Position numbers and translations under genes: made by a program. From Leifsonia sp. fls2-241-R2A-40a (lineage in GTDB: Bacteria; Actinomycetota; Actinomycetes; Actinomycetales; Microbacteriaceae), in the NCBI RefSeq assembly GCF_030209575.1, contig NZ_JARVRS010000001.1:3658001-3722000 (forward strand): DNA of 64,000 nt, read 5' to 3'. The notes under the pieces were generated by a model. The model ran no database searches and was not told the origin of the DNA. It saw only the letters and a list, made by a program, of their open reading frames with translations. Below are positions 3,465 through 17,900 of the stretch, one piece after another. Position 1 is the first letter of the stretch. The number at the start of each line of letters is the position of its first letter.

Positions 3465-4106
3465 ATGGGGGATCTCAGCTTGACCACACGCCGCCGCAAC
3501 TGGGCCATCATCTTCACCCTCCTCGGCGTCATCGCCCTCGCCCTCGCGATCGTCGGAACCCTCACCGTCATCAACTCGATGAACGGCACGCTCCGTGTCG
3601 AAGACGACAAGCCGGCGGCGACACAGGTCACGGCTGCCGCGGAGAAGCCAGCGCCGAAGCCCGGCGACACCGTCGACCAGAAGACCGCGTCCGAGATCCG
3701 CCGCAACGTCGACGGAAACCTCCGCGCCTACCAGATGCCGGACGGGACGTTCGTCGTTCTCGATCGGACGCAGCCGCTTCCCGCGGCAGTGAAGAGCGAC
3801 CTCGAAGCAAAGGCCACAGCTGCACGCATCGCTGCCGGGCAGGACTTCAAGACCGCCGACGTTCCCGGCAAGATCCTCGGTGACCTGAGCTATCAGGCGG
3901 GGAGGCGGGGGATCCTCTGTGTCCAGCTGTGGTCCGGCACCGTCGACGGCACCGACCAGCCCGGGTTCTTCTGGGCGCCCGCGCTGTCACGCCAGTCGGT
4001 CGTTCAGGGGCAGCTGCACAGCGAGGCTGAATGCGTCGCCGCCGCGCAGGCGTACGTCGCATCTCAGCCGGATGCCGCCGACTGGGAAGTCCTGGTGGCC
4101 CACTGA
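3465..4106 (+). CDS. Array protein 1 (type B): single-pass membrane protein of unknown function
   Basis: This is the first of five consecutive homologous genes. Its 213-residue product has a short basic N-terminus, one transmembrane helix at about residues 13-35, the shared post-membrane motif SMNGTLR (39-45), an Ala/Pro/Lys linker, and an exported domain containing RTQPLP (about 101-106). The C-terminus SQPDAADWEVLVAH resembles arrays 3 and 5 (QPDA...VVxQ), which defines type B. Two cysteines (ILCVQ, AECVA) are present only in this copy. ATG 3465 is chosen because homology to the other copies begins just after it; TTG 3480 is possible. The role is unknown. The stop codon overlaps a possible start of the next gene (TGATG), so the array is probably one operon. 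Confidence 0.65.
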   Translation: MGDLSLTTRRRNWAIIFTLLGVIALALAIVGTLTVINSMNGTLRVEDDKPAATQVTAAAEKPAPKPGDTVDQKTASEIRRNVDGNLRAYQMPDGTFVVLDRTQPLPAAVKSDLEAKATAARIAAGQDFKTADVPGKILGDLSYQAGRRGILCVQLWSGTVDGTDQPGFFWAPALSRQSVVQGQLHSEAECVAAAQAYVASQPDAADWEVLVAH

Positions 4107-4120
4107 TGAAGGAACCCCGC

Positions 4121-4762
4121 ATGCTCCGCCGCCGCACCGCCGCGTTCATCGCCATCGGCGCCGTCCTTAGCGTCACAGCTCTCGGTGCCGGCGGCTGGGC
4201 GGTGATGACGTCGATGGACCACTCGTTCACCTTCGCCGCGACCGCTCCGTCGAAGACTCCGACCGCCGCACCCACTCCGGTCGACGAGGAAGAAGCCGCG
4301 AAGCTCGCCGCGGAGAAGGCCGCGAAGGGCCTCACCGTCGGCGCTGTTCTCACCGCGGAGCAGGCGAAGACCATCAGCCACTACTGGCAGGGCAACCTCC
4401 TCCCCTACAAGATGGCCGACGGCACCCAGGTGCTCATCGCCCGCGACCAGCCGCTGCCGGAGAACGTCCGCGAAGACGCAGGCAAGAGGGTCGGGCTCAC
4501 CAACCAGGCGGATGCGGCCGCGAACGACTCCACGCTCATGGGCGTCGCAGCCCTTCAGCGAACCCTGAGGGCCGACACCGGCCACCGCGTCTACATCGTC
4601 TCGCACGCGTACACGTACCTCCTCCCAGATGCCGAAGCGATGGGGTGGACGTGGGTGTCATCAGCGATCGGTGGGCAGGAGCAGTTCCCTGACGCAGCGG
4701 CCGCGGTCGCCGCCAGCCGAGCCAAGGCCGGCCCCGACGCCGAGATCATCGTCAGCCAGTGA
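4121..4762 (+). CDS. Array protein 2 (type A): single-pass membrane protein of unknown function
   Basis: The 213-residue product starts MLRRRTAAF, has a membrane helix at about residues 8-30, then SMDHSFTF, a linker rich in Ala, Pro and Thr, and an exported domain with VLTAEQAKTI, ARDQPLPENV and a C-terminal block ending in DAEIIVSQ. These features define type A, shared with array protein 4 (SRSQPLPENV, GVEIIVSQ). GAAGGA is spaced seven bases from ATG 4121, which favours this start over the overlapping ATG 4106 (MKEPRM...). The segment TWVSSAIGGQEQFPDAAAAV is also conserved in protein 4 (TWLSLALGGQHPF). No known family is recognised; it is probably membrane-anchored with the domain outside the cell. 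Confidence 0.65.
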   Translation: MLRRRTAAFIAIGAVLSVTALGAGGWAVMTSMDHSFTFAATAPSKTPTAAPTPVDEEEAAKLAAEKAAKGLTVGAVLTAEQAKTISHYWQGNLLPYKMADGTQVLIARDQPLPENVREDAGKRVGLTNQADAAANDSTLMGVAALQRTLRADTGHRVYIVSHAYTYLLPDAEAMGWTWVSSAIGGQEQFPDAAAAVAASRAKAGPDAEIIVSQ

Positions 4763-4773
4763 AGGAACCCCGC

Positions 4774-5439
4774 ATGCCCCGCCGCCGCACCACCATCATC
4801 GTGACCTCGATCGGGGTCGTTGCTGTCGCCGCGCTCGGCGTCGGCGCATTCGTCTTCGTCGACTCGATGAACGGCTCGTTCCGCCTGAGCAGCGGCTCTG
4901 CCGCTGCTGCGGAGAAGACGCCGCCCGCTACGTCCACCCCGACGCTGAAGGTGGTGCCGGTCGGTGGCGTTCTGGACGAGGAGACCGCGCTCGACCTTCG
5001 GCGCGAGATGTCAGACAACGGCGACTTCGCCTACAAGCTCCCGGACGGCCGCTGGGTCAAGACCAACCGCTTCCAGCCGCTCCCCGACGCGGTCAAGGCC
5101 GACGCGGATGCCCAAGCGGTGGCGATGCCCCGCACCTCCGGTTCAACGTGGCAGGAAGGCGCAGCAGGCACGAAGAACGCTGACGACACAGCAGGGAGGA
5201 TCCAGTTCGCCACAGGCAAGAAGACGGTCATCATCTCCACACAGCTCAAGGCAGCGGAGGGGATCGGCAACGCGTACAACGTCCCAACCTACGCCGTCAA
5301 CGGCGCCATCACCCCCGGCATGGTGGCGATGAACGGAGCTGGCGGATGGGGCACCGTCGACGAAGCCGTCGCCGCCGTGCAGGCGGACATCGCGGCGCAG
5401 CCCGACGCGAACAACTACCTCCTAGTGGTGCAGCCGTGA
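4774..5439 (+). CDS. Array protein 3 (type B): single-pass membrane protein of unknown function
   Basis: The 221-residue product starts MPRRRTTII, has one membrane helix at about 8-29, then SMNGSFRL, an Ala/Thr/Pro linker, and the type B core VGGVLDEETALDLRREM, GDFAYKLPDGRWVKTNRFQPLP, and a C-terminus reading QPDANNYLLVVQP. It is closest to array protein 5, with long identical stretches in the core. The start is preceded by GAAGGAACCCCGC, the same leader as array gene 2, indicating that the junction itself was duplicated. Its own 3' end overlaps the next start codon as GTGA, implying translational coupling. Confidence 0.65.
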   Translation: MPRRRTTIIVTSIGVVAVAALGVGAFVFVDSMNGSFRLSSGSAAAAEKTPPATSTPTLKVVPVGGVLDEETALDLRREMSDNGDFAYKLPDGRWVKTNRFQPLPDAVKADADAQAVAMPRTSGSTWQEGAAGTKNADDTAGRIQFATGKKTVIISTQLKAAEGIGNAYNVPTYAVNGAITPGMVAMNGAGGWGTVDEAVAAVQADIAAQPDANNYLLVVQP

Positions 5440-6059
5440 ACCGCCGCACTCTCGTCATCACCTCAGCCGCGATCGTCACAGTCGCCGCGCTCGCCTTCGG
5501 AACGTGGGCTGTCCTCGGCTCGATGGACGACTCGTTCCGAGTTGGCGCCTCTGAGCCGACGGCTACGCCGGTAGCGACGCCGATCGACGAGGACACCGGT
5601 CGGAGGACCGCCGCCGAGAAGGCCGTCGCTGGGAAGAGAATCGGTGACGAGCTCACGAAAGAGCAGGCCGACGCAGTCAAGGCGTACTTCGACGGCGATT
5701 CGGTCGACTACACGACGATCGACGGCAAGTCGCTGCTCGTCTCCCGGTCGCAGCCGCTGCCGGAGAACGTGAAAGTGGACGCTGGCAAGAAGGTAGCCGC
5801 GGCCGCGCAGGCGTCCGCCGCCGCGAACGACCCGTCGAACTTGGCGGTCGAGAAAGCACAGCAGACCATCGCGTACGAGACAGGGCGGCCCGTCGTAGTC
5901 GTCGCCCACGTCTACACCGCGAACGCAGCTGGCGACGCGTACGAGTGGACGTGGCTGTCGCTCGCCCTCGGTGGCCAGCACCCTTTCGCAGACGCCGCAT
6001 CCGCTATCGCTGCGACCCAGGCCGCAAAGCCCGGCGTCGAGATCATCGTCAGCCAATGA
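5436..6059 (+). CDS. Array protein 4 (type A): single-pass membrane protein of unknown function
   Basis: The 207-residue product begins at GTG 5436, overlapping the preceding stop codon by GTGA, and reads VNRRTLVITSAAIV. It has a membrane helix at about residues 6-27, SMDDSFRV, a linker, then the type A core (RIGDELTKEQADAVKAYF, SRSQPLPENVKVDAGKK) and the C-terminal block ending PGVEIIVSQ. It is clearly paralogous to array protein 2 and less like its immediate neighbours 3 and 5. There is no strong ribosome binding site, so translation probably depends on coupling to gene 3. Function unknown. Confidence 0.65.
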   Translation: MNRRTLVITSAAIVTVAALAFGTWAVLGSMDDSFRVGASEPTATPVATPIDEDTGRRTAAEKAVAGKRIGDELTKEQADAVKAYFDGDSVDYTTIDGKSLLVSRSQPLPENVKVDAGKKVAAAAQASAAANDPSNLAVEKAQQTIAYETGRPVVVVAHVYTANAAGDAYEWTWLSLALGGQHPFADAASAIAATQAAKPGVEIIVSQ

Positions 6060-6073
6060 CCCAGGAGACCCCC

Positions 6074-6736
6074 GTGCCCCGCCGAACCCGCACCGCTATC
6101 ATCGCCACCTCGATCGCGGTCGTCGTCCTCGCCGCCGTAGGCGTCGGCGGGTGGGCGTTGCTCGACTCGATGAACGGTTCGTTCCGCATCGGTGCCGGGA
6201 AGCCCGCGGCCGCCGCGGTCGAGACGCACACTGCGACGTCGACGCCGACGGTCGTCCCGGTCGGCGGGGTCCTCGACGAGGAGACCGCGCTCGAGCTGCG
6301 ACGCGAGATGCCGGACAACGGCGACTTCGCGTACAAGACGCCCGACGGGCGATGGATCAAGACGAACCGGCACCAGCCGATGCCGGCCGAGGTGATGGCG
6401 GCCGAGCAGGCGCAGCTCGACCAGCTCGCGGTCCCGGCGGGTACCGCGGCCGCCGACGGGCTGGCGGGAGCGAAAGCAGCAACAGCGGCGGCCGGCGCGT
6501 CGAGCTACCGCACCGGCCGTCACGTCCTTCTGATCAGCAAGATCCCGGTGGCAACCAGTTACAGCACGAACGGGCTGAAGTGGGTGATCATGGGAGGCCT
6601 CGAGAAGAGCCTCCCGGCCGGCGTCGGTGGTAACGGCTGGGACGACGAGGCTACCGCTGTCGCGAAGGCGCAGGAGCTCATCGCCGCGCAGCCGGACGCC
6701 GGAGACTGGGACATCGTCGTCGCTCAACAGGGTTGA
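6074..6736 (+). CDS. Array protein 5 (type B): single-pass membrane protein of unknown function
   Basis: The 220-residue product has a membrane helix at about residues 8-30, SMNGSFRI, and the type B core GGVLDEETALELRREM and GDFAYKTPDGRWIKTNRHQP, ending QPDAGDWDIVVAQQG. GTG 6074 is favoured as start because CAGGAGA lies just upstream and the resulting VPRRTRT matches the MPRRR/MLRRR starts of its paralogs; ATG 6056, which overlaps the previous stop, would add six residues. The last 50 bases of this gene are partly duplicated at 7644-7697, on the other side of the GIY-YIG gene. Confidence 0.65.
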   Translation: MPRRTRTAIIATSIAVVVLAAVGVGGWALLDSMNGSFRIGAGKPAAAAVETHTATSTPTVVPVGGVLDEETALELRREMPDNGDFAYKTPDGRWIKTNRHQPMPAEVMAAEQAQLDQLAVPAGTAAADGLAGAKAATAAAGASSYRTGRHVLLISKIPVATSYSTNGLKWVIMGGLEKSLPAGVGGNGWDDEATAVAKAQELIAAQPDAGDWDIVVAQQG

Positions 6737-6763: not shown

Positions 6764-7618
6764 ATGATTAAGCTCACCGACCTACTGCCTGTTCCGGAGC
6801 CTGGGCTGACGAAGGTGAAGTTCAACATGCGGGCCGGCGGTGGCGGCGGTGAGGCGTGGGATCTGCTCCTCGACGACCACGAGGAGTGGCTCAATATGAG
6901 CCGGTGGCGGACCCGGCAGACGAACAACAACATGGCTGACGCGCGTTATCTGCTCGCGTTCGCCCAGTACTACCCGTACGGGCCGCAGTACTTCATCTTC
7001 GGCGGGTTCTACGACGTTCAGCCGAAGGTCCCGGAGATGCTCAACGCCTACGGGTACGAGGTGACACCCCTTCCCCAGCATTCCGAGTACGTCAAGCGGC
7101 TCATCATCAAGCTCAACGAGCCGATCGGCCGGAACGTATACCTCCGACGGTACGAGAGCGTGCAGGAGCAGCTTCGGCCGGAGGTGTACGAGCTCGCGCG
7201 TGACACCAAGCTCGGGACGTTCCCCGGGTACCAGAACGTGAAGCTCCGCCATCATGAGCTACAGCGGATCATCGCGAACGACGAGCCCAGCTGGAAGGAT
7301 GCACTCTCCTCCGTGAAGGGCGTCTACGTGATCACCGACCTCACCAGCGGCCGGCTCTACGTGGGTTCGGCGTCGGGTGAGGCGAACGGGCTCTGGCAGC
7401 GGTGGTCCGCGTACGCGAACCTCAGCAACCTCACCGGCGGGAACCGCGAGCTCGAACACCTCCGCGCGGAGCGGGGCGACTCGTTCCTGGTCGAGAACTT
7501 CCAGTACACGATCCTCGAGATCTTCGACCCGAAGACCCGGCCGGAGGTGATTCTGCTGCGGGAGTCGTTCTGGAAGCAGGCGCTGGATACCCGCGCGCAC
7601 GGGATGAACCGAAACTGA
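6764..7618 (+). CDS. GIY-YIG nuclease-domain protein
   Basis: The 284-residue protein carries a GIY-YIG domain in its C-terminal half: GVYVI (186-190), RLYVGSA (197-203), the conserved arginine in WQRW (R213), and a glutamate in RESFWKQAL (E267), the usual metal-binding position. GIY-YIG enzymes cleave DNA in homing endonucleases, repair nucleases and some restriction systems. The N-terminal 180 residues form a separate domain with conserved-looking aromatic stretches (FAQYYPYGPQYFIFGGFY) that I do not recognise; it may bind substrate. AGGAGG is well placed before ATG 6764. It directly follows the membrane-protein array and may be co-transcribed with it. Its target and role are unknown. Confidence 0.75.
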   Translation: MIKLTDLLPVPEPGLTKVKFNMRAGGGGGEAWDLLLDDHEEWLNMSRWRTRQTNNNMADARYLLAFAQYYPYGPQYFIFGGFYDVQPKVPEMLNAYGYEVTPLPQHSEYVKRLIIKLNEPIGRNVYLRRYESVQEQLRPEVYELARDTKLGTFPGYQNVKLRHHELQRIIANDEPSWKDALSSVKGVYVITDLTSGRLYVGSASGEANGLWQRWSAYANLSNLTGGNRELEHLRAERGDSFLVENFQYTILEIFDPKTRPEVILLRESFWKQALDTRAHGMNRN

Positions 7619-7937: not shown

Positions 7938-9245
7938 GTGGCGCGACTCCAGCGAGACAGTCGCGAGCCGAAAGAGCTCGCTACAGCTTCTGGGAAGCGC
8001 ATCAGACTTCCAGCGCCAGTGAGGCTCTCCACACGCCAAGGTGACGTCCCTGGGGTCCTCAGCTACGACTCCGTCGAGGAGCGCTTCCGTGTCGATTGCG
8101 CCCAGGGCGACCTCTACGACTTAAGGCGTGCGGGCGACTTCACCTTCAAGGTGCGTGGCACGCGAGCAGCCGCTCGCGGCTACGTGGCCATCCGACACGG
8201 CGTGCACTTCCTTGCCCTCCACGAGTTGCGCGTCGGGACGGACAGCCTTCAAGAAGAGTTGCAATCGCTGCGTCTTGCAATCGAGAATGCCTCCCTGGCG
8301 TTCTCTTACCGCTTCGACGACGGTGCCGCGGTAGGCCAGATCGAGATTCCGCTGCCAGCCATCGACGAAGCACCACCCGCGAAACTGACGCTCGAGAACG
8401 GAGACCTGGTTATCACGCCAGCGGACGGCGCTCTGCTGGCCGCACTCCTTCCCCACGTTGCCGCGCTTGAGGACCTCATCACGTTCTGCTGCAACAAGCC
8501 CAGCGCGGTCCAAGCAGTCACCGGGATGACAACCACTGGACGCGAGATCGCGATCCTGGGGCAGACCCGCTACCTTCCGTTCAGGAAACCGGCACCGAAG
8601 GTGTACGACCTTGCAATGCGCCTAGGAAATGCCCGCGCTCCACAGCTCTTTGCGTGGTGGTGGGAGGCTCGGACGGAAGCCCGCCCAGTCACGCAGATAT
8701 TGGCGGGGACGCTATATCAGGGTGGTTTTGTCGAGAGCGGGGCGATAGCTCTGCTCGCCGCCGCAGAGGTCTGGTCACGCAATGCCTTCGAGATCCAGGG
8801 TGCAGCTCCCTTCACCGATAGGCAGCTCGCGCCGATCGTGAAGGCACTGCAGGCCATCCCGGACATGGACAAGGCTCAGAAGTCCTTCGTCCGCCGCGTT
8901 CGCCGGAACAAGCCCGCCGACACCACGCTCGGTGATCATCTGCGCGCCATGCTCGATGACCTTGGCGACCATGTCTCCGAGGCACGGATCGCCCGCGATG
9001 TATTGGTGACACTAGCGCTCCGAGCGCGCAATCAGATCGCGCACGAGGGAGCACCACGCGGGCAAGGCGCGAAGGATGCGATGACGGATGCTGAGCTTCG
9101 CGCAGTACGAGATGCAACGCGTCTTCTCCTCACACTGAGCGTGTGTAAGGCCGCTGGAGTTCCGGCGGCTGCGCTTTCCCTCACAGGTCGGCAACTCGGT
9201 TCGCGCTATGCACAGGCTCACAAGCAATCAGGCATCTTCTTGTAG
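7938..9245 (+). CDS. HEPN-domain protein, ApeA-like, putative defence protein
   Basis: The protein of about 435 residues has an N-terminal beta-rich region (PGVLSYDSVEERFRVD, GYVAIRHGVHFLALHEL) resembling the N-terminal domain of ApeA-type anti-phage proteins, a middle helical part (LFAWWWEARTEARPVTQIL, IALLAAAEVWSRNAF), and a C-terminal HEPN-like domain with RNQIAH (R at about 364, H at 369), matching the RNxxxH catalytic motif of HEPN RNases. Such proteins typically restrict phage by cleaving RNA. The start is uncertain: GTG 7938 has GGAGCAGG upstream; GTG 7824 and ATG 7761 would add residues with poor codon character. No antitoxin is visible next to it. The family call rests on pattern only. 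Confidence 0.6.
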   Translation: MARLQRDSREPKELATASGKRIRLPAPVRLSTRQGDVPGVLSYDSVEERFRVDCAQGDLYDLRRAGDFTFKVRGTRAAARGYVAIRHGVHFLALHELRVGTDSLQEELQSLRLAIENASLAFSYRFDDGAAVGQIEIPLPAIDEAPPAKLTLENGDLVITPADGALLAALLPHVAALEDLITFCCNKPSAVQAVTGMTTTGREIAILGQTRYLPFRKPAPKVYDLAMRLGNARAPQLFAWWWEARTEARPVTQILAGTLYQGGFVESGAIALLAAAEVWSRNAFEIQGAAPFTDRQLAPIVKALQAIPDMDKAQKSFVRRVRRNKPADTTLGDHLRAMLDDLGDHVSEARIARDVLVTLALRARNQIAHEGAPRGQGAKDAMTDAELRAVRDATRLLLTLSVCKAAGVPAAALSLTGRQLGSRYAQAHKQSGIFL

Positions 9246-9585: not shown

Positions 9586-10605
9586 TCAGAGCCCGAGCTC
9601 GCGGGACGTGGTCGCTTCGAAAATGCGCCCCCGGTCGACGTAGCCGGCGAGCACCGAGAGGTTCTTGTGGCGGCTCGTCTTGGCGATCCGCTCCAGCGAC
9701 ACGCCTGCACCGGCCGCGGTCGTGATGTGGCTGCGCCGCGGTGAGTGGCCGGTCAGTGCAGGAAGGTCGACCCCGGCAGCCTCCGCCCGGGCGCGGAGGA
9801 TCAGCGGAACGGACTGACCAGTGAGTGCCTGGTGCAACGCGCGGCCGTTGGACCAGACCCGGACGAACAGGGGCGTGTCGTCGGTGAGGCGCCCCACCTC
9901 GCGACGGCGCTGCTCGACGAGCGCCTCAAGGTGGGCGACCGGGTCGGTGATGCCCGTGCCGCGCGCGATCGCCAGCTCCTCGCCCCTCCCCTGCTGGTCG
10001 GTCTTTGACCGGCTGATGTAGACCAAGACCCCGTCACGGGTGAAGGTGAGGTCACCGACGGTGAGGGCGACGAGCTCACTTCGACGGAGGGCGGCCGCGT
10101 ACGCGGTGAGGATCAACGCCGCATCCCGACGCCCGACCGGGTTGGTGAGGTCGATGGCGGCGACCACCTGCCGCAACTGGTCGGTGGTGAACACGCTCGC
10201 CTTCCGCACACGGTGGCCGGCGAGTTCGCGGCGGGCGCCGGCGATGAAGTCTTGCAGCACCCGGGTCTCGGTGGGATTGGGGAGGCCGAGCTCTCGAGCG
10301 CGGCGCCGGACGGCCGCGAGCAGGATGTCGATGGCAGAACTGGAGATGCCGGTCTTCTTCCCTGACGCGTCGGTGCGCTCGTCCAGGGCCCAGGTCAGGA
10401 ACGACGCGATCGTCGCCGGGAAGTTGGGGTCCCAGCCATGCTCGTCCGCGAACCGGTCCAACTGGCGCAGCGAACTCGCGTATGCGCGGCGGGTGTTCGG
10501 GCTGAGGGCCGACTCGACCCTCTGGGCGATGCCGGGAAGGTAGGCGGCCGGGTCGGTCGGTGTTGCGAGCTCGGCGGAGTCCGACAGCTCGACGGGAACG
10601 GTCAT
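9586..10605 (-). CDS. Tyrosine recombinase/integrase
   Basis: The 339-residue protein has an N-terminal SAM-like DNA-binding domain (SPNTRRAYASSLRQLDRF) and a C-terminal catalytic domain. Numbering from ATG 10605, the catalytic set is R174 (ALRRSEL), K201 (SKTD), H287-x-x-R290 (HSPR), H313 (SRHKN) and nucleophile Y322 (AGYVD), so it looks active. It cuts and rejoins DNA through a phosphotyrosine link. It is not next to a tRNA and is distinct from the integrase at 16.4-17.6 kb. A GTG at 10617 is an alternative start; ATG 10605 has GGAAGGTGG upstream. A dyad at 10646-10675, just before its start, has the layout of a recombination core site. Confidence 0.9.
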   Translation of the reverse strand: MTVPVELSDSAELATPTDPAAYLPGIAQRVESALSPNTRRAYASSLRQLDRFADEHGWDPNFPATIASFLTWALDERTDASGKKTGISSSAIDILLAAVRRRARELGLPNPTETRVLQDFIAGARRELAGHRVRKASVFTTDQLRQVVAAIDLTNPVGRRDAALILTAYAAALRRSELVALTVGDLTFTRDGVLVYISRSKTDQQGRGEELAIARGTGITDPVAHLEALVEQRRREVGRLTDDTPLFVRVWSNGRALHQALTGQSVPLILRARAEAAGVDLPALTGHSPRRSHITTAAGAGVSLERIAKTSRHKNLSVLAGYVDRGRIFEATTSRELGL

Positions 10606-10645
10606 CTCGGGGTCCACCTTCCACCTATGCGCGGGATGGTCCCTT

Positions 10646-11447: not shown

Positions 11448-12905
11448 TTAGTTGTAACCCCAGATGCCCGTCGCTTTGATGAGGTCGTGGACCGTGATGG
11501 GAAGGGCGGTGGGCGAGCTCGCGATCCAGGTGACGCCCATCGACCCGGCCTTGCTCAAGGTCTTCAGTGCTGGGAAACCGCTGGTGCCGAGGTCCAGGAC
11601 CGGATTGTTGCTGAAGTTCAGGTACCCGGCGGATTTCAAAGCGGGGAAGCGCGCGCTCATAAGGGACTTGTTCTGCTGCACGTAGAGGTCTTCTGCGCTG
11701 GTCAGCGCGCTGAAGTCGACGGAGGCGAGCCCAGTTCCCTTAATCGTTACCGCGCTGCCCGGGCCGCCGTCGAACGCGGTGAGCTTCGGCACCTCGAGTG
11801 ACGCCAGCGACGCACCACCGAGGGACATGCTGCCCGCCTGGGTCAGAGACGGGAGCGACAAGTCGGTCACCCCTGTGCCTTGCAGGAAGATCCCCACGGT
11901 GGCGGTGCTGAGCGCGCTTAGGTCGAGCGTCTTGAGAGCGGTGGCGGGCGTGGCCGCGGAGAGGGCGCTGATCGAGCCGACGGTGCTGAGGGATGGTGCC
12001 TTGATCGCCGTGATGGCGGAGGAGGTCACGTTGATCACGTTCGTGACCGATTTGAGAGCCGGCGCCGAGAGCTCTGTGACACCGTCACCGTCGCGGACCT
12101 GGATCGACGTCACGGAGGTGAAAGGGAGAGAGATCGCGCCCTTGACGCTGTTGAAGTAGACCGTACCGGCCGACGTGATGTTGCCCAGTCCATTCTCGGA
12201 CTTGAGCGTCACCGCCCCGACGCCCAGCTTTGTGACGCCCTTCGCGAGCTCGAGACCGGAGAGGTCGACGCCTGAGGTGGCTCCCTTGATGGCGGTGAGC
12301 AGCGGCCCGTCGTTCGAGTCGGCCAGCGTGGCCGCGTGGCTGAGCAGGAGCGGCTGGGAGGCGTCGAGGCCGAGGCTGGCGCGGACCCCGGCGGCGACGA
12401 CAGCGTCCGGGACCGCCCACGTCGGCGCTGGGTCAGAGGTCTCCTCGGCGGCGGTGATCGGCGCGCAGGGGGTGTTCTGTCCGTCAGTGAGGATCGTTGG
12501 GTTAGTGTCGCCGGACCAGGCCATGTAGGTTTTGCCGGCGGCCGTGGCGGTGGCAACCCAGCATCGCCCGCTGGCGTCTGTCGCAACATGGAGGTCGGAG
12601 GCCGGGAGGAGCTTGGCCGCTTGCAACCCGGCGGAGTCCGTGTACGTGCCGCCGCTGTTGATCCGGGCGATCGCCTGCGCGTCGACGACGCCGCGCAACG
12701 ACGACTGGGCGGCCTGCTGCTGTGCCCAGGGGACGACCCCGACGATGGTGGCTGCGATGACGCCGGCGATGATTCCGATGACCAGGATGCCGACCATGAT
12801 CGAGGCGAGGTCGACGACACCGCTCTCGGCGGTGAACAAGGTGGAGCGTTCGCTGCGTAACCGGGCGATAGCGCTGCGGACACGGCTGCTGATGATGGTG
12901 TGCAT
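11448..12905 (-). CDS. Prepilin-like protein with a C-terminal beta-solenoid domain
   Basis: The 485-residue protein begins with a basic stretch followed by a pilin-like helix: ESGVVDLASIMVGILVIG at about 27-44, continuing hydrophobic to about 58, then an amphipathic helix (QQQAAQSSLRGVVDAQ). It lacks the usual Glu at +5 after the glycine. Two cysteines (SGRCWVA, NTPCAPI) may pair. From about residue 165, VVAAGVRASLGLDASQ starts a domain also found in the lipoprotein at 13828-15150, followed by roughly 20-24-residue repeats rich in L, S and T with LPxLxxxGS-type motifs, like a leucine-rich or beta-helical solenoid. A surface adhesin mounted on a pilin-type anchor is the likely picture. A shared upstream element lies at 12963-12988. 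Confidence 0.7.
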   Translation of the reverse strand: MHTIISSRVRSAIARLRSERSTLFTAESGVVDLASIMVGILVIGIIAGVIAATIVGVVPWAQQQAAQSSLRGVVDAQAIARINSGGTYTDSAGLQAAKLLPASDLHVATDASGRCWVATATAAGKTYMAWSGDTNPTILTDGQNTPCAPITAAEETSDPAPTWAVPDAVVAAGVRASLGLDASQPLLLSHAATLADSNDGPLLTAIKGATSGVDLSGLELAKGVTKLGVGAVTLKSENGLGNITSAGTVYFNSVKGAISLPFTSVTSIQVRDGDGVTELSAPALKSVTNVINVTSSAITAIKAPSLSTVGSISALSAATPATALKTLDLSALSTATVGIFLQGTGVTDLSLPSLTQAGSMSLGGASLASLEVPKLTAFDGGPGSAVTIKGTGLASVDFSALTSAEDLYVQQNKSLMSARFPALKSAGYLNFSNNPVLDLGTSGFPALKTLSKAGSMGVTWIASSPTALPITVHDLIKATGIWGYN

Positions 12906-13079: not shown

Positions 13080-13769
13080 ATGCAGACATCAGCAACCACC
13101 GCAGGGCGCCGCGCCCGCGTCTCCACAGTGGCAAAGCGGATCCGGGAGTGTCTTGTCCGCGACGACGGAGCCACCTTGCCGGAGACGATTATCGCCGTCG
13201 TCGTTTCCGCCACGATGATGGGCGCGATCAGCACGGGCGTGATCGCGCTGACGACGCTGAATCACAGCGTCGCCGCCACGGCCGCGTCCATCCGCGACGT
13301 CACGACGACAGACATGCGCTGGCGCGAGAGCGTCCGGCAGGCCGTCCAGATCACCCCCGCCGACGACCACACCGTCACGATGACCGTGCCGGCAGCGACC
13401 GGGTGCCGGACCGACAGCTGGACGTTCGACAGGGCCTCCGGGCTCCGAGTTGCCACCACGGTCTACCCGACGCTCACCGGGACGTCTTGCGCGGGCACGG
13501 CGCTGGCGCCGGCCGCCACGGAAACGTTGCTGCCCGGCAACTCCGGGGTCAGTTTCCACTATCGCAACCTCGGCGGGCGCGACGTCACCTACACCGCCGG
13601 GTCACCCACGTTGGCGCCAGGGACCGCACCAGCCGAGGTGGCTAGTACGGGTTGGACATCCACCACGGTCGGTAGTGCTTACTTGGACGGCACGGTGATC
13701 ACCCCTGGCCGCGCGCAGGGGCGCCTCATCCACAGCAGTCAGATTGCCAACAACATCGTCGGCCCCTGA
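13080..13769 (+). CDS. Prepilin-like (type IV pilin/pseudopilin) protein
   Basis: The 229-residue protein has a basic leader, then DDGATLPETIIAVVV: a prepilin peptidase site at G30 with the characteristic Glu at +5 (E35) and a hydrophobic helix to about residue 60. The remainder is a beta-rich, Thr-rich globular domain with two cysteines (ATGCRTD, GTSCAGT) that could form a disulfide. It would be processed by a prepilin peptidase and assembled into, or seeded on, a pilus-like structure; no peptidase, ATPase or platform gene is in the window, so it probably relies on a host system. GAGGAGGG precedes ATG 13080. It is divergent from the gene at 11448-12905 and convergent with the collagen-like lipoprotein. 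Confidence 0.75.
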   Translation: MQTSATTAGRRARVSTVAKRIRECLVRDDGATLPETIIAVVVSATMMGAISTGVIALTTLNHSVAATAASIRDVTTTDMRWRESVRQAVQITPADDHTVTMTVPAATGCRTDSWTFDRASGLRVATTVYPTLTGTSCAGTALAPAATETLLPGNSGVSFHYRNLGGRDVTYTAGSPTLAPGTAPAEVASTGWTSTTVGSAYLDGTVITPGRAQGRLIHSSQIANNIVGP

Positions 13770-13827: not shown

Positions 13828-15150
13828 CTAGTTGGCGGCGAGGTACGCCTGCAGCGTCGTCGGCAGATCCGTGACCGGCCAGTCCGGCAGGTAGGAACTG
13901 AATCCCGCCGGTGCTGGCCCGACCAGGGATGGGAAGCCGTTGGGGTCCCAGATGAGGCTTGGGTCAGCCCACATGCCTGCACTCTGCGAGATGGTCGTGA
14001 GCGCATTTGCTCGCAGCGACTGGAGAAGAGGGTTGTTGAACACGGCGAACTGCCCGACCTGCCTCAGAACGGGCAGCTCAAGGTCAGTGATGCGGGTGCC
14101 GCTGACAGACAGGGCTCCTGCGGTTTCAAGCGACGGAACGCCGATGCTGGTGGCGGACGGCGAGTCCAAGAATGAGAGGGTGCCAGTGGACTCCAACGAC
14201 GGGAGCTCGAGAGTGGTGAGGGACGGGCATCCCATGACGCCAACTGCTCCAGCGGCCTCCCGAAGAGCCGACAGGTCGACGTTGGTGATCCCCGTGTTGC
14301 CGTTGCAGTAGATCACCACGTCGCCGAGACCTTGGATCAGGGCGGGTAGCGAGATGTCCCCGGTCTGAGGTCCGGCGCCGATCATCATCTGGCCGATCGA
14401 GGTCAGGTTGGGAAGGCTCACATCGCCCACGGCGCCACTCGATTCCAGGTCACCGATGTAGCGGATGTTCTCTAGGCCGTCGAAGGGGGTCGGACCGGAG
14501 GTGTAGACGGTGTCGAGCTGCGTGACGTTCGTCGCCGCCTCCAGGCCCCGGTATTCGTACGTCGCCGCGCCCCCGGCCATCGAAGCGTACTTCCGAACCG
14601 GCGCGTCATTGTTGTCATTGAGACGCGCAGCGTCGTCTAGCGTGAGCTGGGCCGAGTCAGGAAGCCCGAGGGAGACGCGAATAGCCGTGGCCAACGTCGG
14701 GTCGGCGATATTCCACGGCGTGGTGTCACGTACCGGCGGGTTGCCGCCGTTGTCATCGCCGCCTGACGGGCCCGCGGGGCCTGCTGGGCCCGCCTGGCCT
14801 GGCTGGCCTGGCTGGCCGTCGTTCCCGGGGCTCCCCACACCAGGTGCGCCGGTGGCTCCGCGCGCGCCGGTGGCTCCGCGGGGGCCCTGGATGGTCTGGA
14901 TGACGGGGGTGGAGATCACCGGCTGCTGCACGACCGGTGGGGTGAAGGTCTGCAGCGGAGTCTGCTGCGCAGGGTGCTGCTTCGTCTCGGCGGTCTTCGG
15001 TGCTGCGGATGCTGTGGTGTGCGGCTGCTGCGCCGCAATCGGCGCCTGCTGCTGCGTAGTGCAACCGGCAGCGCCGAAGGCGACGCTGGCGATGATGACA
15101 CCAGCTGCGAGCCGGACGGCGTTGGAGCGGCGGTTGGATCGGTTGGTCAT
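13828..15150 (-). CDS. Collagen-like lipoprotein with a beta-solenoid domain
   Basis: The 440-residue protein starts MTNRSNRRSN, with a hydrophobic signal ending in a lipobox (GAAGC, Cys30), then a Gln/Thr/Pro-rich stalk to about residue 87. Residues 89-130 are collagen-like Gly-X-Y triplets: five, a two-residue break (GV), then eight more. From about 148, LATAIRVSLGLPDSAQL is homologous to VVAAGVRASLGLDASQ in the protein at 11448-12905, and both continue LxDxND(A/G)P into L/S/T-rich repeats of about 20 residues. The likely product is a lipid-anchored surface adhesin on a stiff stalk. AAAGGA precedes the start. It lies downstream of two tiny membrane-protein genes on the same strand, probably in their transcript. 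Confidence 0.75.
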   Translation of the reverse strand: MTNRSNRRSNAVRLAAGVIIASVAFGAAGCTTQQQAPIAAQQPHTTASAAPKTAETKQHPAQQTPLQTFTPPVVQQPVISTPVIQTIQGPRGATGARGATGAPGVGSPGNDGQPGQPGQAGPAGPAGPSGGDDNGGNPPVRDTTPWNIADPTLATAIRVSLGLPDSAQLTLDDAARLNDNNDAPVRKYASMAGGAATYEYRGLEAATNVTQLDTVYTSGPTPFDGLENIRYIGDLESSGAVGDVSLPNLTSIGQMMIGAGPQTGDISLPALIQGLGDVVIYCNGNTGITNVDLSALREAAGAVGVMGCPSLTTLELPSLESTGTLSFLDSPSATSIGVPSLETAGALSVSGTRITDLELPVLRQVGQFAVFNNPLLQSLRANALTTISQSAGMWADPSLIWDPNGFPSLVGPAPAGFSSYLPDWPVTDLPTTLQAYLAAN

Positions 15151-16156: not shown

Positions 16157-16369
16157 ATGAGCGACAAGACCACGAAGAAGACCTTGCGAGTCGACCGGCT
16201 CTGGACGACGGACGACATCGCGGCATACCTCCAGGTTGCGGTCGGCACCGTCCGCAACATGTCCTCCCGAGGACAGCTTCCCGTGCCGGTGGACAACATC
16301 GGGCGGTCTCGGCGGTGGCGCCCTGACGACGTGATCGCCTTCTTCGGCCCGCGTCGGAGCGCCCGATGA
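16157..16369 (+). CDS. Excisionase-like HTH protein
   Basis: The 70-residue protein has a basic N-terminus and a MerR/AlpA-type helix-turn-helix: LWTTDDIAAYLQVAVGTVRN at about 15-34, followed by a wing (GRSRRWRPDDVIAFF). Such proteins bend DNA at attachment sites and set the direction of recombination (Xis) or activate integrase genes. GGGAGAGAG precedes the ATG. It overlaps the integrase start by four bases (ATGA), so the two are translationally coupled, which strongly supports a role in excision of the island. Confidence 0.8.
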   Translation: MSDKTTKKTLRVDRLWTTDDIAAYLQVAVGTVRNMSSRGQLPVPVDNIGRSRRWRPDDVIAFFGPRRSAR

Positions 16370-17589
16370 CTGGCCGCCCGCGCACCTCACTGGGAACGTG
16401 GGGCAAACTCGCCTACACGACACTCGCTGACGGCCGCGTCCGGGTGAGCGGTGCATACCGAGACCCGTGGGGAACCACCCATCGCATACAGCGGACGGGC
16501 GGCTCCCGTGCTGCCGCGGACAAGCTACGTCTCAATGCCGCCCAGAAGATCAACGGCCGCCGGACCGGCAGCAGCATGTCGACGCTCACATCCGAGTCCA
16601 CAATCCGCGAGCTGGCGGAACTCGTCCTCAGGGAGTACGAGCAAAGCGCCGACCTGGCGACGCAGACGGTGAGCCGTTACCGGGCTTCCATCCGCAACCA
16701 CATCATCCCGACCATCGGTGATCTCCTCCTCGATGAGGTCGACGGACACCTCCTCGGCGAGTTCCTCACGACCCTCAACTCGAAGCACCCCAGCGAGGCC
16801 CGTAGCTGCCGCACCATCATCCGCAAGATGCACACGAAGGGAGGCAGGGCGATTCGAGACGACTGGATCTCGGGCCTCCCCAAGCGCCTCATCCGGCGTC
16901 GCGGCGAGGTCCGCGCCCTGTCCGCTAACTCGGTCAAGGCGCTATTCACGATGCTGGAGTCCGACAGTCAGCGTCCTCGCGGCGGCCCCAAGTCCCGGCG
17001 CGCTCACGACACGCTTCGGGACGTGCTGACCGTGCAACTCGGAACCGGCCTACGAGTGAGCGAAGTCGCGGCGTTCCGTGCCGAAGACGTGGTCCTGCGG
17101 CCCGACGGACGCGTACAAGTCAGCGTCCACGGCGCCGTGGTGTACAGGGAAGCGAGTGGCACGAGAACTACCGTGCCCGGACGAAAGCGGCCGGTCTACG
17201 AGACTCCTGGGCGATACATCATCCAAGAGCACATCAAGACGAACCAGAAGCGTCTGGTGTGGGCAGATGAGTGGGCGGCGGCTGTACTACTTCGGCGCGC
17301 CGGTGCCACCGAATCAGGGCTCCTGTTCGCGACGGAAACCGGTCAGCCGCTGAACCTCAACAACCTGCGACGGACTCTTCGCGAGGTTATCGGTGGCTCC
17401 GACTTCGAAGGCTGGCTCTCCACGCACACGATGCGGAGGACTGTCGGCAACGCGGTCGCTCGGGAGCACGGCGAAGAGGCAGCGGCTGCAGCTCTCGGGC
17501 ACGCCTCGGTCGCGACCACCAGGGAGTCGTATATCGAGCGGGTTCAGATGGCACCCGACGTCTCGAGTGTGACCAGCCAGCTTCGCTGA
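16366..17589 (+). CDS. Tyrosine integrase of the island
   Basis: The 407-residue protein has an arm-binding N-terminal region (GRVRVSGAYRDPWG), a core-binding SAM-like domain (about 75-160) and a C-terminal catalytic domain with R230 (GTGLRVSE), H354-x-x-R357 (HTMR), H379 (LGHAS) and nucleophile Y389 (RESYI). The catalytic lysine probably lies in the beta-hairpin near residue 270. It would integrate and, with the excisionase, excise the island at the 3' end of tRNA-Gln, 239 bases downstream. The gene starts within the excisionase stop and is followed by a terminator at 17605-17631. Confidence 0.92.
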   Translation: MTGRPRTSLGTWGKLAYTTLADGRVRVSGAYRDPWGTTHRIQRTGGSRAAADKLRLNAAQKINGRRTGSSMSTLTSESTIRELAELVLREYEQSADLATQTVSRYRASIRNHIIPTIGDLLLDEVDGHLLGEFLTTLNSKHPSEARSCRTIIRKMHTKGGRAIRDDWISGLPKRLIRRRGEVRALSANSVKALFTMLESDSQRPRGGPKSRRAHDTLRDVLTVQLGTGLRVSEVAAFRAEDVVLRPDGRVQVSVHGAVVYREASGTRTTVPGRKRPVYETPGRYIIQEHIKTNQKRLVWADEWAAAVLLRRAGATESGLLFATETGQPLNLNNLRRTLREVIGGSDFEGWLSTHTMRRTVGNAVAREHGEEAAAAALGHASVATTRESYIERVQMAPDVSSVTSQLR

Positions 17590-17812: not shown

Positions 17813-17828
17813 CGACGTCATATCACTG

Positions 17829-17900
17829 CTGGGGTACCTGGACTCGAACCAAGAACAACTGAACCAGAATCAGCCGTGTTGCCAATTACACCATACCCCA
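17829..17900 (-). tRNA. tRNA-Gln (anticodon CUG)
   Basis: The minus strand folds as a tRNA: a 7-bp acceptor stem TGGGGTA (17894-17900) with TACCCCA (17830-17836), an anticodon stem GCTGA/TCAGT around the loop TTCTGGT with anticodon CTG (17865-17867), and a T arm containing GGTTCGAGTCC. CCA is not encoded. Its 3' end points at the integrase gene, making it the likely attachment site of the island; the gene is left intact. Confidence 0.95.

Follow-up and report, generated by a model that had tools for sequence, protein, structure and literature searches.

The 64,000-nucleotide stretch of the Leifsonia sp. fls2-241-R2A-40a genome analysed here (hereafter the window; NCBI RefSeq assembly GCF_030209575.1, contig NZ_JARVRS010000001.1, positions 3,658,001 to 3,722,000 of the forward strand) contains a tandem array of five genes for membrane-anchored proteins at window positions 3465-6736. 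The explanation that we favour, with a probability of roughly 0.55, is that the array is carried as cargo by a mobile-looking element, that its products are envelope paralogues of an undescribed family evolving by the swapping of anchors and outer domains, and that these domains bind envelope or incoming partners. The anchors and the domains have different histories, which we describe after the array itself.

A tandem array of anchored envelope proteins

The five genes are arranged head to tail on the plus strand, with neighbours that overlap or sit a few bases apart, and all frames are open, encoding 213, 218, 226, 207 and 226 amino acids for copies 1 to 5 when counted from the outermost starts. 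Shine-Dalgarno-like sequences chosen by eye, together with the database proteins P0006, P0007, P0017 and P0016 (copies 1, 2, 3 and 5), which begin a few residues after the outermost starts, point to likelier starts at 3480, 4121, 4774, 5436 (unchanged) and 6074. Copy 1 (P0001; 3465-4106, likelier start TTG 3480) joins a transmembrane (TM) anchor to a QPLP domain of a third type, C, at about 3657-4103. Copy 2 (P0002; 4106-4762, ATG 4121) consists of a TM anchor, a PVDEEEAAK linker and a type A domain at about 4334-4759, and copy 4 (P0004; 5436-6059) likewise joins a TM anchor to a type A domain, at about 5637-6056. Copies 3 (P0003; 4759-5439, ATG 4774) and 5 (P0005; 6056-6736, GTG 6074) each combine a TM anchor of the MPRRRT group with a type B domain, at about 4957-5436 and 6257-6733, respectively. 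Every copy has one hydrophobic helix, preceded by more K/R than D/E residues and followed by no equally hydrophobic segment, and the motifs RTQPLP, RDQPLP, NRFQPLP, RSQPLP and NRHQPMP occur in copies 1 to 5. A preliminary description of this DNA as holding five adjacent genes for single-pass membrane proteins with common QPLP or QPMP motifs is thus borne out by frames, helices and motifs. The C terminus reads EIIVSQ in copies 2 and 4 and contains QPDA in copies 1, 3 and 5.

In the proposed architecture of each protein, a short tail in the cytoplasm would precede one membrane helix, followed by a linker and an alpha/beta domain of about 140 residues that is predicted to lie outside the membrane. 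An AlphaFold2 model of the copy 2 form starting at 4121 (P0007) has a mean predicted local distance difference test (pLDDT) score of 94-98 per ten-residue block from model residue 61. The five window copies have no lipobox and carry the TM anchor instead; a lipobox pattern is present in 9 of 34 family rows, one of them (P0021) doubtful, indicating that the same domain is probably lipid-anchored in several relatives.

A search of the genome with copy 3 at E values up to 1 returned the query itself and the other four copies (E 2e-54 to 3e-9) and nothing else, a homology well beyond chance level. Identity to copy 1 is 25-34% for the other copies, 48% between copies 2 and 4 and 49-51% between copies 3 and 5, and A and B domains alone share 23-25%. 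No Pfam or NCBIfam family lies above cut-off for any copy and no PHROG match is better than 0.003, consistent with the earlier remark that no known family was recognised in the proteins. No work on the family was found in the open-licence literature, none of which was searched by sequence, so that its being undescribed in print stays unproven. A five-copy profile gives full-length matches in two of 28 genomes of the genus, the source genome included, or in eight of 28 with short helix-region matches counted. At 1e-5 it matches 15 of 398 genomes of the taxonomic family (G015, G238 and G367 in the helix region only), and a B-centred profile matches 8 of 396 genomes of the order (G744 in the helix region only), with the source genome again included in both counts. 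The named relatives come from Leifsonia, Curtobacterium, Glaciihabitans and unclassified Microbacteriaceae; one of them, Leifsonia sp. TF02-11, belongs to the genus group of the source genome. Over 33 rows, the positions G79, Y101, G106, P116, L117, P118, V121, G159 and W183 (P0002 numbering) are fixed or nearly so. The array defines an unannotated envelope-protein family that is sporadic in Microbacteriaceae and related families, sits partly on mobile DNA and probably diversifies through the exchange of modules.

Domain types and the origin of the copies

To place the copies among their relatives, we used a whole-protein tree of 31 rows and a domain-only tree of 33 rows, both without G116, G251, G299, G302, G362:C18, G511, G610, G698, G725, P0025 and the helix-only matches. 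In the whole-protein tree, ten A rows form one clade (98/96) and six B rows another (86/86), with the A/B split at 98/96. With domains only, A is recovered at 98/98 and the rows from Curtobacterium and G149 are placed among those of type B, indicating that the B type is less sharply bounded. The array had been read as an alternation of two types, with copies 2 and 4 as A and copies 1, 3 and 5 as B. The trees uphold A for copies 2 and 4 and B for copies 3 and 5, but do not support B for copy 1, which groups instead with P0018 as a third type, outside B (92/96 whole protein, 82/87 domain only). In the approximately unbiased (AU) test, a placement of copy 1 inside B gives p 0.054 for the whole protein and 0.041 for the domain. 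Its likeness to B lies mainly in the QPDA-type tail, which is also found in relatives outside both A and B.

By pairwise identity among the five, copy 2 is closest to copy 4, as previously noted for the A copies, and copy 3 is closest to copy 5. The tree tests of sisterhood were run among relatives, not on a tree of the five copies alone, and they do not agree with the proposal that the array grew by duplication of one local A-B pair. Sisterhood of copies 2 and 4 is rejected by the AU test (p 0.00017 whole protein, 0.002 domain only), and copy 4 is instead sister to the lone A gene of Leifsonia sp. TF02-11 (99/96; 98/91 domain only, together with the near-copy P0026). The result for copies 3 and 5 is mixed (p 0.018 whole protein, 0.063 domain only); copy 3 is sister to P0022 (87/82 whole protein, 88/59 domain only), and copy 5 is sister to ACFVWR_07065 of Leifsonia sp. 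NPDC058292 at 98/84 with the whole protein but only 96/47 with the domain. The rejection for copies 2 and 4 indicates that the A copies stem from lineages that parted before these lineages lay in different strains, although exchange between arrays could give the same tree picture. Copies 3 and 5 likely derive from early-parted lineages as well, though less firmly.

Anchors and domains have different histories

For the comparison of modules, an anchor tree of 15 Leifsonia-type rows and one stub (anchors of about 46 residues) was set beside a matching domain tree of 15 rows. A single clade of the nine A rows is rejected for the anchors (p 0.0005), and the corresponding value for the five B rows is p 0.039, whereas the domains of the same rows form A at 100/99 and B at 98/96. 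The anchor of copy 1 pairs at 100/100 with that of the A protein P0010, but on the domains this grouping is rejected (p 0.0005); P0010 and copy 1 are 74% identical in the anchor and 27% in the domain, and P0010 and P0014 are 82% identical in the domain and 22% in the anchor. By alignment score, the anchor of the second A gene of TF02-11 comes nearest to B-gene anchors (without a resolved position in the anchor tree), and the B protein of Leifsonia aquatica has an anchor closest to those of two A genes (87/82 in the anchor tree). Anchors and domains of this family thus have different histories.

Two stretches of the window plus strand have homology that crosses gene boundaries. The first, 4238-4928, extends from the copy 2 A domain over the gene boundary to the anchor and linker of copy 3 and is 73% identical over 707 alignment columns to TF02-11 L022 10802-10118. 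The second, 5569-6191, runs from the A domain of copy 4 into the anchor of copy 5 and is 67% identical over 628 columns to L022 10774-10158. Both run out of the A domain past the stop codon, enter the anchor of the following gene and stop short of the B domain, their TF02-11 partner being a junction of two A genes. The simplest account is recombination in anchor/linker DNA, with the A-A arrangement of TF02-11 derived from an A-B order. Under this mechanism, recombination between similar anchor/linker sequences would add, delete and swap domains, and the unit of change would be the domain of one gene plus the anchor of the next.

A comparable mode has been described for the tandem lipoprotein-like (lpl) clusters of the Staphylococcus aureus genomic island nuSa-alpha, which PMC5187369 considers most likely to have arisen through multiple recombination events at a conserved region, with the variable regions being shuffled; it cites Tsuru and Kobayashi 2008, whose title refers to a unit that extends over two neighbouring genes. 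Like the lpl genes as described there, the window array consists of tandem membrane-anchored paralogues on a genomic island, and its homology unit, in two blocks compared with one other strain, crosses from the C-terminal part of one gene into the N-terminal part of the next. The systems differ in that the parts exchanged in the window array are anchor and outer domain and the host is a Leifsonia-type actinobacterium. Pfam contains an lpl model; the window copies, unlike lpl, have a TM anchor without a lipobox and match no Pfam family above cut-off, and hence show no protein family in common with lpl.

A and B genes occur apart

Strict alternation of A and B had been taken to suggest a heteromeric surface complex, which in its strongest form would be obligate, with the gene order preserving stoichiometry. 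The A-B-A-B order in the window fits such a complex, as do the consecutive locus tags of ACFVWR_07070 (A) and ACFVWR_07065 (B) in NPDC058292, whose adjacency is inferred from the tags and both of which have a longest contig of 121,149. Homology between both window A-B junctions and the A-A junction of TF02-11 also extends as far as the beginning of the second domain. However, the 99% complete genome of TF02-11 (G017) has three A genes, two in tandem and one lone, and no B gene; the B profile finds there only these three genes and one anchor-only stub. Two A proteins, P0013 and P0027, are apparently encoded on one 11,072-bp contig, and Leifsonia aquatica returned B only. From other sources, A alone (P0012, P0014, P0015 and P0026) or B alone (P0020, P0022 and P0023) was returned. 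The searches behind these A-only and B-only results, L. aquatica included, and behind NPDC058292 each scored 8000 candidates and left some members already known undetected, so the absences of A or B are soft. In G008 (G008:C8, about 64289-64375; L114, L121), the site of the lone TF02-11 A gene lacks about 690 bp; the last 27-29 codons are kept between two conserved genes, and the B profile has no match in that genome, indicating that the A gene was lost there with no B in sight. Strict pairing therefore does not hold, NPDC058292 being the one other strain in which A and B are apparently adjacent, and the obligate heteromer appears improbable to us. In the module-exchange explanation, the alternation would be a remnant of an old A-B order and would carry no implication of a heteromer.

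The array lies within a mobile-looking element

A 35-bp sequence at 17828-17862, which lies in the 3′ part of a tRNA-Gln gene (17828-17900, minus strand), has an exact copy outside the window at G000:C1:3601285-3601319; the second-longest match within 122 kb measures 15 bp. The two copies are 74.6 kb apart with the array between them, and the window copy resembles a right attachment site. A tyrosine integrase gene (16366-17589, plus strand; Phage_integrase 5.9e-12) adjoins the tRNA gene at the element's right end, and an FtsK/SpoIIIE-type protein is encoded within the element boundaries (L058:2542-4308; PF01580 6.2e-11, above cut-off). These features resemble actinobacterial integrating conjugative elements as presented in PMC3218068, which share with the present one direct repeats, a tyrosine integrase at the 3′ end of a tRNA gene and an FtsK/SpoIIIE-type protein. 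No replication initiator, relaxase or type IV secretion system gene was identified among the scanned proteins, which cover part of the element. A second tyrosine recombinase with an N-terminal SAM-like domain is encoded inside the element (9586-10617, minus strand).

Family members also occur on Curtobacterium plasmid NZ_CP126274.1 and Glaciihabitans plasmid NZ_CP043654.1, the latter (G102) 100% identical over a 209-residue query. For NZ_CP126274.1, PLSDB lists a predicted NDM-19 resistance gene at 489657-489758 (L006), whose length of only 102 bp suggests an artefact.

Candidate functions of the outer domains

Anchoring outside the membrane, carriage on mobile DNA, a tandem arrangement and the exchange of modules characterise proteins with variable recognition partners. 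Exclusion or recognition is the kind of function that we prefer, although the probability that we attach to a surface role in entry exclusion or phage recognition is low. The domains would bind envelope or incoming partners, for example as exclusion or phage-recognition proteins, and an array would keep several specificities at once; this is the weakest step of the proposed mechanism. In a specific version, entry or surface exclusion, the anchored domains would act at the envelope to keep out incoming copies of the same element or of its relatives. The location on an element, the envelope anchoring, the members on two plasmids and the diversification into types are all consistent with exclusion, but none of the known exclusion proteins was seen to be homologous and single chromosomal copies exist, and we consider it possible though unlikely. 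A combinatorial version, in which at least three anchor groups and three domain types are reshuffled at the linker and the strain-specific set decides which phages or elements enter, seems doubtful. If arrays of this kind do control cell entry, they would represent the actinobacterial equivalent of the lipoprotein clusters that are known to diversify, and would connect mobile elements, surface variation and the entry of phages or plasmids in a testable way.

Several points weigh against our favoured explanation of mobile, module-swapping envelope proteins with variable partners. The only conjugation proteins identified among those scanned are of FtsK type, so that transfer of the element is at most putative, and both member-bearing plasmids are typed as non-mobilizable. 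Apparently single chromosomal members stand beside a dxr-like gene (G097) and pfkA-like genes (G698, G725), neighbours that were named by eye, indicating that mobile elements are not the family's only location. No known homologue points to a function. The anchors span only about 46 residues, their tree contains one starred branch and had a bootstrap that was still unsettled, and the naming of the anchor groups followed inspection of the data.

Neighbouring genes

The gene 27 nt downstream of the array, at 6764-7618 on the same strand, encodes a UzuA-like GIY-YIG protein (GIY-YIG 1.1e-4; PADLOC UzuA 6.3e-52), and PADLOC places two further UzuA-type genes on the element (L025:2621-3391, minus strand, 7e-86; L057:17107-17790, 7e-77). 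The short gap, the shared strand, the strong UzuA profile match and the additional UzuA-type genes could suggest that the array proteins are envelope sensors or partners of this defence gene. The array proteins themselves, however, have no PADLOC match, and UzuA, of the Uzume system in PADLOC-DB, occurs elsewhere without the array family. Among 22 UzuA loci in 19 of 299 genomes, a family member is present only at the window locus (flanks of at most 1.5 kb); its absence from the flanks of the other 21 indicates that the link is one of cargo neighbourhood and not of conserved companionship. A single-sequence search with the window UzuA matched nothing else in the family contexts, a weak result given that it missed the L025 UzuA-type gene. 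We therefore regard a UzuA partnership as very improbable. The protein encoded beside the UzuA-like gene at 7938-9245 (plus strand) has a weak match to a Cas13-ApeA (HEPN) profile (E 0.0012), and the two genes possibly form a small defence cluster.

Large surface proteins with prepilin-like N termini, recognised by eye, are encoded in the window at 11448-12905 (minus strand) and 13080-13769 (plus strand) and at L045, L046 and L047. The array could be imagined to encode accessory factors for prepilin-like surface proteins that the element carries and that might use the host type IV pilus machine. Such N termini lie near the family in four of the 12 loci that measure at least about 20 kb (the window, G260, G149 and G236), the window protein 11448-12905 is related to the G236 protein (1.6e-12), and PF00437 (PilB/PilT-type) ATPases are present in all six genomes searched, with three in G000 and none of these within the element. 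Against this, the same reading finds no prepilin-like N termini in the other 8 of 12 loci, the G149 surface protein was found in only one of 150 genomes, its own, and no pilin family was matched in Pfam among the scanned proteins, which makes a pilus-accessory role rather improbable. Finally, the gene at 13828-15150 (minus strand) encodes a lipoprotein-like product with collagen-like GXX repeats (Collagen 5e-4, below cut-off) that is related to the neighbouring prepilin-like protein (8.8e-19).

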